Program-made: the position numbers and the translations under genes
Part shown: in pieces, positions 2,908 to 10,867 of the stretch
How the letters are laid out: each line of letters begins with the position of its first letter
Position numbering within the stretch: the first letter of the stretch is position 1
Notes under the pieces: generated by a model
The model's database searches: none
Told to the model about the DNA's origin: nothing
What the model saw: the letters and a program-made list of their open reading frames with translations, nothing else
Source: an uncultured Bacteroidales bacterium
GTDB taxonomy: Bacteria > Bacteroidota > Bacteroidia > Bacteroidales > Paludibacteraceae
Direction: 5' to 3'
Length of the DNA: 48,410 nt
NCBI GenBank assembly: GCA_902799185.1
Contig: CADBZO010000007.1
Location: 1-48,410, forward strand

Positions 2908-5900
2908 ATGAAAAAAATCTTTTTGTTCTTAGGGATGATGCTCTGTGCGGCGGTGATGTTCGCGCAAGAGGGTCTGAGCTATGGCGTGCTGGTGAACGGC
3001 AACACGCTGTTCCGGGCGGAGTACAAAGGGGTGAGCAGCATCTCCGGATTGCCGGAGTACAATGCCAAGGCCGCGATGGTAGCCGGCGACAAGTGCGTGC
3101 TGGTCAACCTCAGTAACGGGGATACCTGGACGGTGCCTCTGGACGACGCGAGTACGAAGAGTATCAGCCTGGGCAGCGGCTCGTACGTGGCTTCTGCGGA
3201 CGGATGCTATGATTTCTGGTTGAAACTCTCCTATGGCAATGACCAGCTGTATGTAGGAACGACCACAGACTGCGGCGAGGGAGAGGCGTATGAAGGTACT
3301 ACGCCGTGCTCGGAGTCGTTCGGCCTGTTGGTGGACGGAGTGTATGTAGCCGGTGTGAAGAATGAGGCTCCGTTAGATCCGAGTTTTATGGAATATCAGG
3401 TGAAAGGCGTGAAGCTGACTGCCGGTCAGAAGGTGCAGGTATATGACTCCTGCCATCAGGCTGCGTGGGTAATCAGCAAATATGCAGCGACGAGTTATGA
3501 GTTCCCCATAGAGGGAGACAGCTACAAGGTGACGGAAAACGGTACCTATGACTTCTATCTGAAATTCAAGATGGGCGAGGACGAACTGTATGTAGCCTGC
3601 CAGGGCTGCAAAGAGCAACCTCAGCCCGTTTCGGCAGTACCGAGCCAGTGCGGCGACGTGCTGTTGCAGGGATTCTATTATGACAGCTACGAAGTGTCGG
3701 AGAACCATCTTGGCACGACCACTTACGGCGATACCAAATGGAAGACTCTGCTGGCCCAGGCCGGTGAGATAGGCGCCTATTTCGACCTGATCTGGTTACC
3801 GCCCAGCGCTTATGCCAGCGGTACGGGTTATCACCCCAAACAATACTCGAACCAGAACAGCGATTGGGGCAGCCGTGCGGAGCTGGAGAAACTGATTGCA
3901 GCGCTGCATAACAGCGGCACGAAGGTGATTGCCGATATCGTCATCAACCACGTAGAGGCTATGTCAAACTGGTGCGATTTCGCGGTGCAGGATTTCGGCG
4001 AGTACGGCAAGTTCGAGCCGGACGGATCGTATATATGCAGCAACGACGAGATGAACAACGAGGCCAACAAGAAAGAGGCGGGCGAGTGTTTCGGTACTGC
4101 TACCGGTTCGCCGGACGACGGCGCCAACTGGGAAGCTGCTCGTGACTGGAGCCACGACAAAGTCTATGTGCAGGATATGTTCAAGGCTTATCTGAAATGG
4201 ATGAAGAACGTGATGCACTACGACGGCTGGCGTTATGACAAAGGTGACGGTTTCAACAACTGGCACATGGACAACTACAACAAGGCCTCCCAGCCGTATA
4301 TCGCTTTCATGGAATACTGGAGCGGCAACGACGAGATTATCAGAGGTATCGAGCAGGCCAATAGAAACGTGATGGCGCTGGATTTCCAGACCAAGTACAG
4401 TGCTTTTGACGGTATTGCCGGTTTCGACTACAGCAAGTGTAAAGGCAGCGGACTGCTTGGCCGCGGTTACAGCAAATATGCAGTCACGTTTGTGGACAGC
4501 CACGACTGGTTCCTGCGCGACAACGGCCAGGAGTTCGGCGGCAACGGCAAGTCCCTGACTCCGGAGCTGAAAGACCGTCTGCTGCAGGCGAACGCATTCC
4601 TGCTGAGTATGCCGGGCGTGCCGTGTGTGTTCTATCCGCACTGGGCGAAATACAAAGAGGAGCTGAAGGCGATGATCAATGCGCGTCACCTGGCCGGCGT
4701 TCACAGCGAGAGTGCCGTGAGCGACGAAGAGGCGGAGCAAGGCGGCTATAAGGTGACCGTACAAGGCAAGAACGGCTATCTGATCCTCTGTCTGGGTAAC
4801 AAAGCCGGCGCAACTTACTCCGGTTATACCAAGGTGGCTTCCGGCAACGGGTATGCTATCTGGGTACAGGCAACGGGCGATGTGGCTCCGGGTCTGGTAG
4901 TGACTCCGAGCCAGGCGTTCGAGGACAACGAGGCAGGTCTGACCGTAACAATGGAGGCCGTAGGCGGCAGCGGCAACGCACATATCTATTATACGCTGGA
5001 CGGTACGGAGCCGACCACCGCTTCGACGGAGTACACAGCCCCGCTGACCGTCAAGGAGACGACGACGCTCAAAGTGATGGCGGTGTGCGGTACGGCTCAG
5101 TCGAAGGTACAGGAGTACACCTATACCTACCGCGAGCCGCTGCAACACGGTATCCGCGTACGGTTCAACAAACCGGCCGAGTGGGAGAAGGTATATATCT
5201 ACGCCTGGATCCCGGGCACGGACGAGTCAGGCGAGCCTACTTCGGAGAATATCATGGGTGCCTATCCTGGCCAGCGTATCTATCAGGATACGGAAGGCTG
5301 GTTCAGCTATGAGTTCGACAACTCGCTCAAGGCCATCCATTTCTGTATCAACTCCGGCGACGACTGCGGCGGCGTGAATGTCCGCTCCAATGACCTGGAG
5401 ATTGATTACGACGCATGTTACGGCTGGCGCGAAGGCAAAGAGACAGAGAGCTCGGAGGAGGTGTTGCTGGATTGCGACACGTTGCTCAATCCGGCTTTCG
5501 ACCTGGTCATCAGTCCGGAGAGCGGTTTCTTCCGTGACCAGAACGAGGGTCAGGAAGTGACGATCAGTACCGTAGGTGCGGACAACGCGATGATCTATTA
5601 CACGCTGGACGGCTCCGAGCCGACGACGGCCTCCAACCCGTCGCAGGGCACGGCTACCTTCACCGTGAAGAACACCACGACGGTGAAGGCGTATGCGGCG
5701 CTGGACAAAGACCGTACGGCTACCTATACCGCTACCTATACCTACAAGGCTCCCCAGCAGGGCGCTATCACGGTGAAGTTTGTCAAACCGGAAGAGTGGG
5801 AGACGCTGTATCTGTATGCTTTCACGCGCGTAAAAGTAGGAAATAAATACAAAGACACTCCTTATGCGCTGGACGGCAAGACGACCAAATGGCCGGGTAT

Positions 5901-6225
5901 CAAATGGACCACTACGGATGGCGGATGGTACACCTATACCCTGCCGGCAGACATCCATGAGATCTATGTCATCTTCACGGAAGGCGACAAGAAACCGCAG
6001 ACCCAGGATATCTTCCTTACGGAGGACGCATGCTATGTATGGAACCCCGACTGCTGGCGTGCCGTGCTGGATCAAGATTGCGACGGTGTAGTAGAAGAAG
6101 AGGGAATAGAAGTAATAATTGATCAATCCAAGGAAAACAATGAAACGTACAAACTTATTATCGACGGCCAAATGGTTATTATCAACCATGGCGTTATGTA
6201 TGATGTTCTTGGCCGTAAGCTCTGA
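2908..6225 (+). CDS. Secreted multidomain GH13 alpha-amylase with starch-binding-like modules (amylase B)
   Basis: 1105 aa. Signal peptide residues 1-19. Two related ~95-aa modules (about 21-118 and 132-232) each end in a YDFxLK...LYV motif, suggesting internal duplication. The GH13 domain (about 245-655) has DIVINHV, DGWRYDKGDG (nucleophile near D444), FMEYW (acid/base near E469) and FVDSHDW (near D533); the usual N of NHD is S here. C-terminal parts alternate: a chitobiase-type C-terminal (CHB_HEX_C-like) domain with YYTLDGTEPTTAS (664-731), a CBM26-like module (745-845), a second YYTLDGSEPTTAS domain (865-948) and a second CBM26-like module (953-1061). The tail (IIDGQMVIINHGVMYDVLG) matches the family tail. 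Its last 86 bp overlap, out of frame, the start of the next gene, which is unusual. Confidence 0.9.
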   Translation: MKKIFLFLGMMLCAAVMFAQEGLSYGVLVNGNTLFRAEYKGVSSISGLPEYNAKAAMVAGDKCVLVNLSNGDTWTVPLDDASTKSISLGSGSYVASADGCYDFWLKLSYGNDQLYVGTTTDCGEGEAYEGTTPCSESFGLLVDGVYVAGVKNEAPLDPSFMEYQVKGVKLTAGQKVQVYDSCHQAAWVISKYAATSYEFPIEGDSYKVTENGTYDFYLKFKMGEDELYVACQGCKEQPQPVSAVPSQCGDVLLQGFYYDSYEVSENHLGTTTYGDTKWKTLLAQAGEIGAYFDLIWLPPSAYASGTGYHPKQYSNQNSDWGSRAELEKLIAALHNSGTKVIADIVINHVEAMSNWCDFAVQDFGEYGKFEPDGSYICSNDEMNNEANKKEAGECFGTATGSPDDGANWEAARDWSHDKVYVQDMFKAYLKWMKNVMHYDGWRYDKGDGFNNWHMDNYNKASQPYIAFMEYWSGNDEIIRGIEQANRNVMALDFQTKYSAFDGIAGFDYSKCKGSGLLGRGYSKYAVTFVDSHDWFLRDNGQEFGGNGKSLTPELKDRLLQANAFLLSMPGVPCVFYPHWAKYKEELKAMINARHLAGVHSESAVSDEEAEQGGYKVTVQGKNGYLILCLGNKAGATYSGYTKVASGNGYAIWVQATGDVAPGLVVTPSQAFEDNEAGLTVTMEAVGGSGNAHIYYTLDGTEPTTASTEYTAPLTVKETTTLKVMAVCGTAQSKVQEYTYTYREPLQHGIRVRFNKPAEWEKVYIYAWIPGTDESGEPTSENIMGAYPGQRIYQDTEGWFSYEFDNSLKAIHFCINSGDDCGGVNVRSNDLEIDYDACYGWREGKETESSEEVLLDCDTLLNPAFDLVISPESGFFRDQNEGQEVTISTVGADNAMIYYTLDGSEPTTASNPSQGTATFTVKNTTTVKAYAALDKDRTATYTATYTYKAPQQGAITVKFVKPEEWETLYLYAFTRVKVGNKYKDTPYALDGKTTKWPGIKWTTTDGGWYTYTLPADIHEIYVIFTEGDKKPQTQDIFLTEDACYVWNPDCWRAVLDQDCDGVVEEEGIEVIIDQSKENNETYKLIIDGQMVIINHGVMYDVLGRKL

Positions 6226-8422
6226 TGCTTACGCCAAGACGTTGTATCTGAATACAGGCGGCAGCAGTCTGTGGGAAACAGACGGAGCCGACAAGTTCGC
6301 AATCTGGCACTGGCAGGAAGGCCAGGAAGGTACCTGGTCGGAATGGATGACCCGGGTGGATGGCAATGTATGGAAAGCGGAAATCTCCGACAATAGCGAC
6401 AAGGTGATTTTCTGCCGTTTCAACAAAGCAGTGTCCTCTCCGGCTTGGGGTAACGACATGTGGAACCAGACGGATGACCTGGCGCCGGGAAGCAACGATC
6501 TTTTCACCATCACCGGCTGGGGCAACGGCAAGAGCCAGGGTACCTGGTCCGTATATGGCGGGGGCGGCGGTGACAACCCCGGGGGAGGAGACAACCCCGG
6601 TGGCGGTGACAACCCCGGCGGTCAGGGCGGCCAGGGAGGCAGCGGTAACACCGCGGGCTATAACTTCTACGCCATAGGATGGATAAACGGTGCTGATGCC
6701 GGTGAGGCGGCTTACGCCCAATACGACGACAAGTACAAGTTCGTGGACGGCAAACTGACCATCGACTGTAAGATGGGTAGTTATATTGCCATCAAAGATG
6801 ATGACGGTAACTTCTACTACTCCAAAACCCAAGCAACCATCGCGAATACCTCCGTCACGTACGATTGGGCGAACGGTTGGACTCCTTGCGAGAAATGGGC
6901 TATCCCGGAGGGTACCAATTATATCATCATGCGCGAGGTGAACTTCAAAGGTCAGATCAAGCTGGAGCGTGTCGATAAAGCTACTTACGACGCCTATCAT
7001 ATGGATATGGGCGGCAGTACCGGCGGCGGTGACGACACCTATACGCCGGGCGATTTCACGACCGCCGTGCCGAGCCGGTGTACGGACGTGATGCTCCAGG
7101 CGTTCTATTGGAACAGCTACAGCGGCGGCGATCGTACCTATGGTACCAGCACTTGGAAAGTGCTCAAAGACCAGGCTGACGAGATCAACGGTTCGTTCGA
7201 CCTGGTATGGCTGGCACCTTCCTGCCGTGCCAAGGATAACATGGGTTATCTGCCGAGCCAGTATCCGAACCAGAACAGCAACATGGGTACCGAGTCCGAA
7301 CTGAACGCCCTGATCAGTGCGCTTCATGCCGGTAAGACACGCGTCATCGCCGACGTGGTGATCAACCATGCGGGCGACCAGAACTGGGTGAACTTCCTCG
7401 TCCAGGACTTCGGCGAGTACGGCAAGTTCGAGCCGCAGAGCACCTGGATCACCAGCAATGACGAGGCGAAGGGACACGGCACGCTGGGTTCCAATGCGGA
7501 TGACGGCCAGGAGAGCAATGCCAACTACGGCTCCGCGCGTGACTGGGATCACAAGAACACCCAGGTGCAGGCGATGTGCCGCGCGTATCTCAAGTTCCTC
7601 AAAGGTGCGATGAACTACGACGGCTTCCGTTTCGACTATTGCGGCGGATTCCATGTGAGCCATGTCAACGACTACGTGTCTGCCGCCAAGCCGTATTTCT
7701 CCGTCATGGAGTATTGGAACGGCGACCCGAACGTCCTGAAACAGCGTATCGACGATGCCGGCAAGAACACGCTGACCTTCGATTTCGCCAGTTTCTATAC
7801 CTGCTACCAGCAGGGCATAGCCTCCAATAACTACAGCAAACTCCTCAACGCCGGTCTGCGCGGCAAAGGCTACGCCAAGTATGCCGTGAACTTCGTCGAT
7901 AACCACGACACCTTCAACCGCAACGATATCGGCAACTCCGACTGCGGCAACAGCAAGGACGGCAGTTCTTCGCTCAACAACAAAGAGCTCATCATGCAGT
8001 GCAACGCCTACATGCTCTCCATGCCGGGCGTGCCGTGTGTGTTCTGGCCGCACTGGTACAAGTACAAGACAGATATCAAGGCGCTGATCAAAGCCCGTAA
8101 GATGGCGGGTGTGCATTCCGAGAGCGAGGTGCAGGAGAGTGCCGGCAACGGCTACTACGAGGCTACCGTAACGGGCAAGTACGGCAAGGTCGTTCTCTAT
8201 CTGGGTTCGTCGGCAAGCAAAGCTGCGCCGCAGGGATACACCCAGGCGGTCAAGGGCAACAAGTATGCCGTCTATTACACCGGCAACGGCGACCCCAAGC
8301 AGGCGCTTGAAGAGGTCGGCGCCGACCACTCTTTCCGAGGGGAGAAGATCCTCCGGGACGGACGGCTCATGATTCGTCACGGAGAGAAACTCTATGACCT
8401 TACCGGACGGCAGGTGAGATAA
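6140..8422 (+). CDS. Secreted GH13 alpha-amylase with Gly-rich linker (amylase C)
   Basis: 760 aa. ATG 6140 is chosen because it starts a good signal peptide (MKRTNLLSTAKW, then a hydrophobic core to AYA near residue 33). An in-frame ATG at 6119 would add seven residues with no benefit. An N-terminal binding-like module (about 34-135, with FAIWHW and WNQTDDL) is followed by a linker of GGGDNP repeats (about 140-165), a second beta-rich module (170-290), then GH13 (about 315-680). Catalytic blocks are DVVINHA, DGFRFDYCGG (D499), VMEYW (E524) and FVDNHDT (D590). The tail ILRDGRLMIRHGEKLYDLTG is of the shared type. The first 86 bp overlap the end of amylase B in another frame, so translation is probably coupled. 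The stop codon is the first unit of a heptad array. Confidence 0.9.
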   Translation: MKRTNLLSTAKWLLSTMALCMMFLAVSSDAYAKTLYLNTGGSSLWETDGADKFAIWHWQEGQEGTWSEWMTRVDGNVWKAEISDNSDKVIFCRFNKAVSSPAWGNDMWNQTDDLAPGSNDLFTITGWGNGKSQGTWSVYGGGGGDNPGGGDNPGGGDNPGGQGGQGGSGNTAGYNFYAIGWINGADAGEAAYAQYDDKYKFVDGKLTIDCKMGSYIAIKDDDGNFYYSKTQATIANTSVTYDWANGWTPCEKWAIPEGTNYIIMREVNFKGQIKLERVDKATYDAYHMDMGGSTGGGDDTYTPGDFTTAVPSRCTDVMLQAFYWNSYSGGDRTYGTSTWKVLKDQADEINGSFDLVWLAPSCRAKDNMGYLPSQYPNQNSNMGTESELNALISALHAGKTRVIADVVINHAGDQNWVNFLVQDFGEYGKFEPQSTWITSNDEAKGHGTLGSNADDGQESNANYGSARDWDHKNTQVQAMCRAYLKFLKGAMNYDGFRFDYCGGFHVSHVNDYVSAAKPYFSVMEYWNGDPNVLKQRIDDAGKNTLTFDFASFYTCYQQGIASNNYSKLLNAGLRGKGYAKYAVNFVDNHDTFNRNDIGNSDCGNSKDGSSSLNNKELIMQCNAYMLSMPGVPCVFWPHWYKYKTDIKALIKARKMAGVHSESEVQESAGNGYYEATVTGKYGKVVLYLGSSASKAAPQGYTQAVKGNKYAVYYTGNGDPKQALEEVGADHSFRGEKILRDGRLMIRHGEKLYDLTGRQVR

Positions 8423-8468
8423 TTCGTAATTCGTAATTTGTAATTCGTAATTCGTAATTCGTAATTGA
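8420..8468 (+). repeat. Stop-anchored heptad array TAATTCG x7
   Basis: Seven head-to-tail 7-bp units (TAATTCG, one TAATTTG, last TAATTGA) fill the whole gap between amylase C and D. The first TAA is the stop codon of amylase C, and the array ends 2 bp before the next ATG. With period 7, TAA falls in all three frames. Confidence 0.9.
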
Positions 8469-8470
8469 TT

Positions 8471-10867
8471 ATGCGTAAGATTATTCTTAGTATATTGGTG
8501 ATGTGTGTTGCCTGCGTGAGTGCGCAGGTGACCACCTCGCCTACAGTCGTCGAACCGGGCTATACCGGTAAGATCACCATCACTTTTGACCCCAAGGGCG
8601 GCAACGGCGGTATGGCTTCCGCTACCAAGTGTTATGCCCATACGGGCTATTGTACCAAGACCCAGAACTGGCTGGGCGTGAAAGCCGACTGGCGTTCCGC
8701 TTCCGCTCCGCAGCTGACCAAGACCGCTGACGGCAAATGGCAGCTGGAGATAGATAATATGTACACCTATTATAAGATCCCTGCGGGTACGGAGGTGTAC
8801 GCGTTGGCGTTTGTGTTCAACGACGGTCCTAACGGTTCGAAGGAAGGCAAGACGGCTTCCGGCGGAGATATCTTCGTCGTGCTGGGCCAGGAGGCAACAG
8901 GCGATATATGGGCGGCTGTGGAAGGACTGACACCGACCACCAAGACGCGTCCCACCGGCGTGGACCAGGGTATCTACTACGGCTCGGACGGCACCTCGGT
9001 GACGCTCTGTACCTTTGCCGCGTCGAAGTCGGCGGCTGCCAAGAGGGTCTTCCTCATCGGAGATATGACGGACTGGAAGCTGGATGCGGCGCACCAGCTC
9101 TATAAGGACGACAAGTATTTCTGGATTACCCTCAAGGGGCTGGAGCCGGGTAAGGAATACCGCTTCCAGTATGCTGTGGAGCGCGCGGACGGCGTGAAGA
9201 AACAGATCTCCGACCTCTTCTCGGAGAAGGTCATCCACCCCGACGACCAGTGGGAGCCGCGTGCGGCGGACCCGACGCTGATCCAATATCCGCTGCAAGG
9301 GGCGGACGGAGGTTATGTGACGGTTATACAGACCAACAAACCGGCTTACCGGTGGTCGGACGCCACGCTGAACTTCAAGCGCCCGGACAAGAACAACCTC
9401 GTCATCTACGAGCTCTGGGTCTATGACTACACCGCCAAACGTACACTGGAGGGTGTGCGCGGGCGTCTGGATTATATCCAGCAGCTGGGTGTGAATGCCA
9501 TCGAGCTGATGCCGATTTGTGAGTTTGACGGCAACTATAACTGGGGCTACTCGCCCAACCACTATTTCGCGCCGGACCGCGCCTACGGATCGGAGAACGA
9601 CATCAAGGCTTTCATCGACGACTGCCATCAGCGCGGCATAGCGGTTATCCTGGATATGGTCTTCAACCACGCTACGGGGCTGAACCCGATGAACAAACTC
9701 TACCCGTACGGCACGGATCTGAAGAACAACCCCTGGTTCAACGTCACGGCGCCGCATAGCGACAATGTCTATGAGGACTGGAACCATGACTTCGAGCCGG
9801 CGCAGAAGATGTTCAAGCGCGCCATACAATACTGGCTCACGGAGTACAAGGTGGACGGTTTCCGTTTTGACCTGAGCCACGGCTTCTGCGGTACGACCAA
9901 GAACTCGGTGACCCACCTCAAGGACTACTACAACAACGCCCTGAAGGCTGTCTCTCCTACCGCCTATATGATCTGCGAGCACTGGGGAGACCAGATGGGC
10001 TCCGAGCGCCCGCAACTCATCAACGAAGGTATGCTCTGCTGGAACAACACCACCAATGCCTATTGCCAGACGGCGATGGGGTGGCTCAAAGAAGGCGATG
10101 CTTTCACGGAAGCGAACAAAGACGGCTATGTCTCTTATTGCGAGAGCCACGACGAGGAGCGTATGCAGTACAAGTGTAAGATGTGGGGCAACGGCACCAT
10201 CAAAACCGACCTGGCAACCCGTATAGCCCGCGTGCCGGAGAACGTGGCGATGAACGTGCTGCTCAACGGCTCGCATATGCTCTGGCAGTTCGAGGAGATA
10301 GGATATGACTTCTCTATCAACTGCGAGGCGGCGCATCCGAACGCAGGCGACAAGAGCGGCGACGACCAGTACCGCTGTAATATCAAACCCCGTCCCGAGG
10401 CAGCCGGTTATTTCAAAGACCCTGCCCGCGTAGCCGCTTATACCAAATGCGCCCAGGCTATCCGGCTCCGTACGAAGATCATGCCGGAGGTCTTTGCCGG
10501 CAACCCGACGGATGCCAAACTGGGGTCGGGGCAGAAAGTGCGCTACGTACAATGGGGCAGCAACGTCTATGTAGTAGCCAATTTTGATATCGCCGCGCAG
10601 AGCGCTACACTGCCTTCCGGCACCTGGTATGACTACTATGACGGCGGCACCAAGTCCGGCTCGCTCACCCTCCAGCCGGGCGAGCTGAAGATCTTCACGG
10701 GCAAGAAGGTGGACCTGCCGGCTATCAATACCGACCTGGAGAGTATGTTGCCGATAGAGACGGTCACCGCCACACCCGCAAGAGGTACCAAGATCCTCCG
10801 CGACGGACAGATTTATATTCTCCGCGGCGATAAAATATACACAATTACCGGCGCATTGGTGAAATAA
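8471..10867 (+). CDS. Secreted GH13 glucan hydrolase/branching-type enzyme with N-terminal E-set domain (amylase D)
   Basis: 798 aa. Start at ATG 8471 (MRKIILSILVMCVACVSAQ signal peptide); the TTG six bases upstream lies in the repeat. An early module (about 25-180) is followed by a CBM48/E-set-like domain (about 190-250, RVFLIGDMTDWKLD ... KEYRFQYAVE) and GH13. The lead-in VIYELWVYDYT and GYSPNHYFAPDRAYG are typical of the pullulanase/branching/isoamylase side of GH13, unlike the three amylases upstream. Catalytic blocks: DMVFNHA, DGFRFDLSHG (D467), ICEHW (E503) and ESHDEE (D561). The tail ILRDGQIYILRGDKIYTITG is shared. Exact specificity (alpha-1,4, alpha-1,6 or transglycosylation) cannot be read. 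As the only E-set member it may attack branched products of the other three. Confidence 0.87.
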   Translation: MRKIILSILVMCVACVSAQVTTSPTVVEPGYTGKITITFDPKGGNGGMASATKCYAHTGYCTKTQNWLGVKADWRSASAPQLTKTADGKWQLEIDNMYTYYKIPAGTEVYALAFVFNDGPNGSKEGKTASGGDIFVVLGQEATGDIWAAVEGLTPTTKTRPTGVDQGIYYGSDGTSVTLCTFAASKSAAAKRVFLIGDMTDWKLDAAHQLYKDDKYFWITLKGLEPGKEYRFQYAVERADGVKKQISDLFSEKVIHPDDQWEPRAADPTLIQYPLQGADGGYVTVIQTNKPAYRWSDATLNFKRPDKNNLVIYELWVYDYTAKRTLEGVRGRLDYIQQLGVNAIELMPICEFDGNYNWGYSPNHYFAPDRAYGSENDIKAFIDDCHQRGIAVILDMVFNHATGLNPMNKLYPYGTDLKNNPWFNVTAPHSDNVYEDWNHDFEPAQKMFKRAIQYWLTEYKVDGFRFDLSHGFCGTTKNSVTHLKDYYNNALKAVSPTAYMICEHWGDQMGSERPQLINEGMLCWNNTTNAYCQTAMGWLKEGDAFTEANKDGYVSYCESHDEERMQYKCKMWGNGTIKTDLATRIARVPENVAMNVLLNGSHMLWQFEEIGYDFSINCEAAHPNAGDKSGDDQYRCNIKPRPEAAGYFKDPARVAAYTKCAQAIRLRTKIMPEVFAGNPTDAKLGSGQKVRYVQWGSNVYVVANFDIAAQSATLPSGTWYDYYDGGTKSGSLTLQPGELKIFTGKKVDLPAINTDLESMLPIETVTATPARGTKILRDGQIYILRGDKIYTITGALVK

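Follow-up and report, generated by a model that had tools for sequence, protein, structure and literature searches.

A conserved 86-nucleotide overlap between the sorting-like tail of one amylase gene and the signal peptide of the next in an uncultured Bacteroidales bacterium

The 3' end of an amylase gene in an uncultured Bacteroidales bacterium is also the beginning of the next amylase gene, read one base later on the same strand. This locus raises the question of whether 86 shared nucleotides can encode a C-terminal tail in one frame and a signal peptide in the other, or whether the overlap is an error. Palleja et al., who surveyed 338 genomes, judged 715 of 715 co-directional overlaps longer than 60 bp to be artefacts and gave 56 bp as the longest real one (PMC2478687). 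A later study of overlap lengths dropped overlaps above 59 bp as artefacts (PMC3887535). Prodigal allows a same-strand overlap of at most 60 bp (PMC2848648) and, by this published maximum, the starts described here are not callable if the upstream genes are also called at full length. A sorting tail that overlaps a signal peptide is not described in any of the open-access papers among the matches listed.

Geometry of the overlap and nature of the tail

The window analyzed, a stretch of 48,410 nucleotides, comes from a draft genome of 2.43 Mb in 55 contigs. Its features, and the further overlaps of the same genome, are listed in Table 1. Gene 1 ends in ...NETYKLIIDGQMVIINHGVMYDVLGRKL-stop. Gene 2 reads MKRTNLLSTAKWLLSTMALCMMFLAVSSDAYA from its ATG, followed by KTLYL; this ATG sits 85 nt ahead of the last base of gene 1, in the +1 frame. 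The gene 2 share of the overlap is MKRTNLLSTAKWLLSTMALCMMFLAVSS; the frame then continues across the gene 1 stop with DAYA and the mature start KTLYL, and the predicted cleavage site falls 10 nt beyond that stop. Both products scored above the gathering threshold of the alpha-amylase family PF00128 (E values of 3.7e-8 for gene 1 and 4.2e-11 for gene 2), in agreement with a sequence-only reading of the window that had taken both for GH13 enzymes. The same reading had assigned gene 2 a signal peptide running to AYA, and we also found an n-region, a hydrophobic core and a cleavage motif there, judged by hydropathy and by the residues at -3 and -1. By eye, the stretch between genes 2 and 3 (8423-8465) contains short tandem repeats of the TTCGTAA type, and a GGGDNPG linker is repeated in gene 2 between its N-terminal modules (around 6560-6640).

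Table 1. Coordinates of the overlapping amylase genes and of further overlaps in the same genome
Feature	Position	Strand	Basis
Gene 1, predicted secreted GH13 alpha-amylase; carries CBM26 and chitobiase-C-type modules and a C-terminal tail at its end	2908..6225	+	Pfam
Gene 2, predicted secreted GH13 alpha-amylase starting within gene 1, +1 frame	6140..8422	+	Pfam; start region kept in 16 genomes
Dual-coding overlap of the gene 1 and gene 2 amylases (C7), 86 nt	6140..6225	+	
Gene 1 C-terminal tail, predicted three short strands	6145..6222	+	Tail profile, structure model
Gene 2 predicted signal peptide: n-region, hydrophobic core, AYA	6140..6235	+	Hydropathy, profile
A-rich, weakly folded candidate initiation region of gene 2, within gene 1 linker codons	6120..6139	+	
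Tail of gene 2 itself, without overlap (gene 3 starts at 8471)	8339..8419	+	
Tail of gene 3 (GH13), without +1 overlap	10784..10864	+	
Overlap family 2, 71 nt, before a BspA-type LRR protein	G000:C8:56614-56688 (L226; L165-L194)		
Overlap family 3, 71 nt, F5/8-type-C protein tail shared with the lipoprotein-like signal of the following GH3 enzyme	G000:C6:29688-29756 (L211, L255-L284)		
Two C13 paralogous pairs, 38 nt, n-region only, before LRR proteins	C13:4627, C13:16175 (L239, L240)		

The tail of gene 1 is about 27 residues long and belongs to a family with 92 matches in its own genome to a tail profile at E ≤ 0.1. It had been noticed on five other proteins of the window, and the profile indeed matched at 2753, 8339, 10784, 22350 and 47350. 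A model of the gene 1 C terminus, built from 5 sequences (mean pLDDT 73), predicted a helix followed by three short strands in the tail (pLDDT in the tail block 64, 82 and 81). Searches of the genome revealed SprA, a protein of the type IX translocon (SprA_N, E value of 6.7e-186), and nine TIGR04183 domains over the cut-off. When three tails of the window were compared with NCBIfam and Pfam, no family, TIGR04183 included, was matched at E ≤ 10. Like the type IX C-terminal domain (CTD; TIGR04183 Por_Secre_tail), the tail is C-terminal, apparently strand forming, and located on predicted secreted proteins of Bacteroidota (PMC11285876). In contrast, the CTDs described there for Porphyromonas gingivalis comprise 67 to 108 residues in a seven-strand beta-sandwich, far from the short tail and three predicted strands found here. 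The targeting signal of P. gingivalis HBP35 was mapped to its 22 C-terminal residues (PMC11285876), which makes a short sorting signal conceivable for a tail of this length. The earlier term "sorting-like" is plausible for this tail, although no NCBIfam or Pfam model covers it, and we do not call the tail a type IX CTD.

Conservation, loss and exchange of the overlap among related genomes

The last 157 residues of gene 1 were used as a query against 178 same-genus genomes and gave a match at E ≤ 0.001 in 115. In 50 of these genomes, our own included, the junction that follows the best match was examined; the other 65 of the 115 were weaker gene 1 matches. All genomes are drafts, the named relative records are metagenome assembled, and several of the records matching gene 1 come from ruminants (yak omasum, goat reticulum and red deer). 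The overlap was present without any indel in 16 of the 50 junctions (G000, G147, G131, G191, G097, G006, G181, G003, G156, G015, G063, G076, G182, G073, G130 and G185). The 28 overlapping codons are free of gaps in the gene 1 codon alignment of these genomes. Within the first 28 columns, the protein alignment of gene 2 shows 16 gap cells, and a further such alignment also gaps one column, yet the DNA needs no gap in either case. Gene 2 starts at -85 in 14 of the 16. In G063 the ATG at -85 is absent and an in-frame ATG is available at -94, and in G130 the ATG lies at -82. A signal-peptide profile built from 14 of the 16 sequences and run over all 178 genomes placed the 16 overlaps on top (E ≤ 2e-12), followed by G151 at 8.6e-9; nothing else fell below 1e-5, and no further carrier was detected by this profile in the 178 genomes.

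A frameshift error at the junction that fakes the overlap, or a true start of gene 2 further down, would fit the verdict of the survey on long co-directional overlaps (PMC2478687) and the draft state of the genomes analyzed. Either is extremely unlikely, given that the same indel-free overlap is repeated in 16 genomes and that two more overlap families, described below, recur at 30 of 31 and 23 of 30 loci. Moreover, gene 2 has no signal peptide without the start at 6140, as its mature part begins 10 nt past the gene 1 stop, and where the ATG at -85 is missing, another one lies in frame 9 nt upstream or 3 nt downstream. On the 16 indel-free genomes, together with the two further families, we reject a frameshift or assembly artefact; the overlap at 6140-6225 is confirmed as real and conserved.

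In 32 of the remaining 34 junctions, the next frame has its first ATG at or after the gene 1 stop, and two (L077 and L079) were unreadable. These 32 junctions show that the overlap is not essential to the gene 1/gene 2 pair. About 25 of the 34 carry a different type of tail, YNILGQ...GIVIQNGHKFLL, and with this type an overlap was never longer than about 1 nt at readable junctions. These tails are on related amylases, for example L045, L046, L049, L050, L052-L058 and L061-L069 (loci L031-L080). Relatives with a clean junction and a frameshift had been named beforehand as grounds for doubting the overlap; the clean junctions of the relatives show no frameshift there but carry another tail and another signal peptide or, in G151, a new signal peptide next to the decayed former one. 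This genome (L037) retains the tail, and its gene 2 begins 15 nt downstream of the stop, where it has an ordinary signal peptide. The former +1 frame can be recognized (PTNSSSTVASLLSTTAQCSMCLVAASN), with GTG in place of ATG, a Gln in the core and a hydropathy of 1.22. We infer that this decayed frame is a relic and not a precursor.

Other genomes point to joint loss and replacement. In G174 (L042/L123), gene 2 is absent from the locus, the body of gene 1 adjoins those of G131 and G191 in the tree, and the gene 1 tail resembles that of a later cluster gene in G131 and G191. With gene 2 gone and a different tail on gene 1, the overlap tail and gene 2 would have left together. Between G181 and G003, the gene 1 body is 90% identical, the tail 96% and the signal peptide 100%, against 44% for the first mature part of gene 2. 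For G006 and G163, identity amounts to 71% in the body of gene 1 and 77% in the mature domains of gene 2, and the tails and signal peptides are unlike. From these comparisons, the overlap behaves as a single unit between exchangeable modules. In a tree of gene 1 bodies covering 46 of the 50 loci, the overlap requires 11 changes, and branches with good support force at least 5 of them. Its clustering barely exceeds that of shuffled labels (66 of 500 as low). As several rows of this tree are short or sit on long branches, it does not distinguish gain, loss and exchange. A plasmid search with gene 2 returned 8 records, none of which reached 80% query coverage.

Selection on both frames and the start of gene 2

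To examine selection on the second frame, we redrew the codons of the overlap with the gene 1 amino acids fixed and codons chosen by local usage (20,000 draws per sequence, 16 sequences). The +1 frame was open in 1.7 to 8.3% of the draws, and 0 to 0.65% combined an open frame with the observed hydropathy; these values hold for each sequence and must not be multiplied, since the overlap sequences are related, those of G131/G191 and G181/G003 being nearly identical. Synonymous differences, expressed as the fraction of differing codons among codon pairs that encode the same amino acid, amounted to 273/1516 (0.18) in the gene 2 frame of the overlap, compared to 0.46 to 0.57 in four downstream blocks. 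In the gene 1 frame they amounted to 702/2124 (0.33), compared to 0.36 to 0.52 in eight upstream blocks. The synonymous constraint across orthologues that had been proposed as a check is thus strong for gene 2 and mild for gene 1.

We also simulated drift along the tree of the overlap at three settings, one at the observed nucleotide divergence and two lower. When only gene 1 was preserved, the +1 frame stayed open in 6 to 7 of the 16 tips on average. At the three settings, 0, 0 and 1 runs out of 500 each left all 16 open (1/1500), and none of the 1500 runs kept an open frame, the ATG and the hydrophobicity in all 16 tips. Versions with 300 runs gave 0, 0 and 1 runs with all frames open and 0/900 with all three properties. 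When only gene 2 was preserved, the gene 1 frame remained open in all 16 tips in 16 to 26 of 300 runs, so that only the G..YD..G motif of gene 1 discriminates there; this motif was kept in 2 to 3 of 16 tips, and none of 900 runs kept it in every tip. The hydropathy threshold and the motif positions used in these comparisons were chosen after inspection of the data.

The tails themselves differ in the same direction. We compared the 16 overlap tails with 29 control tails of the own genome. The residue at Y-2 is V in 15 overlap tails and A in 1, whereas the controls have K in 19, A in 2 and V in none. M at Y-1 occurs in 16/16 overlap tails versus 4/29 controls, and V at Y-8 in 16/16 versus 0/29. 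The core residues K at Y-16, I at Y-7 and G at Y+4 are shared by all 16 overlaps and by 28, 29 and 29 of the 29 controls. The free positions of the tail are bent toward the needs of the signal peptide. Together, these results support selection on both frames of the overlap and, with its recurrence in 16 genomes, bear out the dual coding of tail and signal peptide that the sequence-only reading had proposed.

The signal peptides of gene 2 were assessed by hydropathy and by the residues at -3 and -1, which revealed the basic n-region, hydrophobic core and small-X-small site of a Sec signal peptide. K or R follows the Met in most of the 16, and A-X-A or L-X-A stands at the expected cleavage place, with AEG in G131/G191 as the exception. 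The best 12-residue hydropathy in the +1 frame ranged from 1.96 to 2.59 in the 16 overlaps and from -0.91 to 1.58 in the 29 controls, which rules out that the tails are always hydrophobic in this frame. Across the 89 readable tails of the own genome, the other high values belonged to the overlaps on C6 (2.83) and C8 (2.05) and to one tail without overlap, C4:3013 (2.25). This tail, the sole one of 84 non-overlapping tails to reach that value, has a stop in its +1 frame. In 68 of these 84 tails, the +1 frame was more hydrophobic than the +2 frame (Wilcoxon p 3.7e-6). Codons for Ile, Leu, Val, Phe and Met carry T at the second position, so that reading one base later gives Phe, Leu, Ser, Cys, Tyr and Trp. 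The tail is thus predisposed toward a +1 signal peptide, but it is not a ready-made one.

This bias is what one would expect if the gene 1 tail alone were selected, with the hydrophobic +1 frame as a by-product of composition and gene 2 poorly or not exported from the 6140 start. The tail at C4:3013 and the much deeper synonymous depression of gene 2, which marks gene 1 as the stronger partner, agree with such an explanation, as does the finding that the redraws of overlap families 2 (C8) and 3 (C6) fairly often leave the +1 frame open, with medians of 0.31 and 0.76. However, these medians fall to 0.002 and 0.001 when the observed hydropathy is also required, just as the redraws of the first family did, none of the 29 control tails attains the hydropathy of the 16, and the +1 frame was not kept under drift with gene 1 alone preserved. 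Furthermore, G151, which has a new downstream signal peptide, lost both the old ATG and the core. We regard the by-product explanation as very unlikely and prefer a +1 frame maintained as the export signal of gene 2.

The region in front of the gene 2 start is A rich, with a mean of 49% A in the 20 nt before it compared to a background of 28%. Its folding energy over [-30,+20] averaged -2.3 kcal/mol in the 16 overlaps and -9.3 at the same place in the 29 control tails, and this interval belonged to the 5% of gene 1 windows with the weakest folding in 13/16 overlaps versus 3/29 controls. Bacteroidota prefer A-rich, unstructured translation starts. With such a site inside gene 1, the linker codons of gene 1 would double as the initiation site of gene 2.

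Coupled translation had been suggested for the two genes. In this scenario, ribosomes leaving gene 1 feed gene 2 and fix the stoichiometry of two cosecreted amylases, as might be expected for neighboring, same-strand, overlapping genes of two related enzymes. Termination-reinitiation requires short overlaps, and a spacing of about 20 nt nearly abolishes it (PMC10666635); if this can be extrapolated to long overlaps, a start 85 nt ahead of the stop exceeds the permitted range. As gene 2 also has its own A-rich, weakly folded site and 32 of the 50 junctions manage without an overlap, the suggestion was not supported, and we consider coupling unlikely. Internal initiation fits the apparent start of gene 2 better. 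A programmed +1 frameshift fusing both enzymes is not favored either, with an in-frame stop 9 to 33 nt before each start and an in-frame ATG in 16/16.

Recurrence in other gene pairs and its implications

Of the 92 tails of the own genome, 89 were examined (one of the three left out has no stop in its contig), and five overlap the signal peptide of the next gene, all in the +1 phase (Table 1). Several candidates were not counted: C19:40277, in the +2 phase and open from -37, is followed by an ordinary signal peptide starting at +9; C6:40509 (+2) has its start at the stop itself; at C23:16531 (+1, about 20 to 26 nt) the next protein is not obviously secreted; C19:38698 and C7:116347 are open in +1 with an ordinary start after the stop; and seven further frames offer no convincing start. 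Overlaps like those of the C13 pairs, of 35 to 38 nt, are seen in many relatives (L285-L310).

The C8 family was examined in the own genome and the best 30 of 141 matching genomes, so that its fractions, from the closest relatives, are at the upper end. The overlap was found at 30 of 31 loci (68 nt in 27 and 71 nt in 3; 27 distinct sequences); at the exception, L192, the two genes only just meet and the signal peptide of gene 2 is a different one. For the C6 family, the best 30 of 95 matching genomes, again the closest relatives with an upper-end fraction, yielded 23 overlaps of 71 to 80 nt (20 distinct sequences). At six other loci of this family the upstream protein is without a tail (ending in ...VKL or ...VKF) and the signal peptide of gene 2 comes after or at the stop, and at one locus the upstream frame was not seen. 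The start regions of both families are A rich (0.49 for C8 and 0.48 for C6) and weakly folded (mean -2.6). The ATG is drawn from the [D/N]-G codons of the tail in 24 of 27 distinct C8 sequences and 15 of 20 distinct C6 sequences. The idea that this pair commonly spells ATG was rejected, as it does so in only 7 of the 75 own-genome tails that have it, 2 of them open to the stop.

If tail and overlapping signal peptide had been copied as a cassette, the three overlap families would share one origin. All tails do belong to one family, and tail and signal peptide change together, as between G006 and G163. In a comparison of 14, 28, 23 and 24 tails, however, the overlap tails of different families were no closer in protein identity to each other (0.35 to 0.39) than to control tails (0.36 to 0.38), and nucleotide identity between families was only slightly higher (0.51 to 0.55 versus 0.47 to 0.50). 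The start also differs, at -85 in the first family and -67 to -79 in the others. The tail comparison leaves copying between families unsupported, and we find a common cassette rather unlikely; since the overlap tails resemble each other no more than they resemble controls, their sequences favor separate origins of the three families.

Taken together, it is very likely that gene 1 and gene 2 form a genuine same-strand overlapping pair, including the following mechanism. The 3' end of gene 1 would encode a short tail that probably serves as a signal for export or surface sorting. From an internal ATG, in the frame shifted by one base, these nucleotides would also provide the n-region and core of a Sec signal peptide for gene 2. 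Both products would be translated, with ribosomes probably beginning gene 2 independently within gene 1, at the A-rich, weakly folded site in the linker codons. As for the order of events, the signal peptide would have been overprinted on an older tail: the strands of the tail are rich in NTN codons that would turn into TNN codons in the +1 frame, and its [D/N]-G pair may spell the ATG. Once formed, the overlap would weld both signals, which would be kept, replaced or lost jointly while the gene 1 body and the mature domains of gene 2 vary around them.

Conservation between species and selection on both frames, by which the survey text recognizes real co-directional overlaps (PMC2478687), are both found at this locus, the latter as judged from our simulations and codon comparisons. 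The closest parallel described there is holD/rimI of Enterobacteria, likewise a same-strand overlap of a C terminus with an N terminus that is kept between species. Unlike the overlaps here (86, 68 to 71 and 71 to 80 nt, with two sorting-type signals superposed and several gene pairs involved), holD/rimI measures 32 to 56 bp, and no targeting signals are mentioned for it. Overprinted and antisense genes of Escherichia coli resemble the present case in that a second frame was recruited on an existing coding sequence (PMC4683798, PMC7103648, PMC9927249). As described, they are separate embedded or antisense genes, whereas here the second frame would be the signal peptide of a large conserved enzyme.

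We think it probable that, within this lineage, the sorting tail serves as a birthplace from which signal peptides arise again and again. In the +1 reading, the strand-forming codons of the tail would repeatedly have become the export signal of the next secreted protein and given rise to a class of long, phase-fixed overlaps of 68 to 86 nt. Three gene families of one genus keep overlaps of this length over many species, against the view of long overlaps as errors, and the exported enzymes of such pairs may be annotated without signal peptides. With dozens of non-overlapping control tails in the same genome, a relic in G151 and a loss in G174, the system is a good test bed for the origin of dual coding. 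If the birthplace reading is true, two sorting signals would have been welded into one heritable unit, beyond the reach of standard gene finders.
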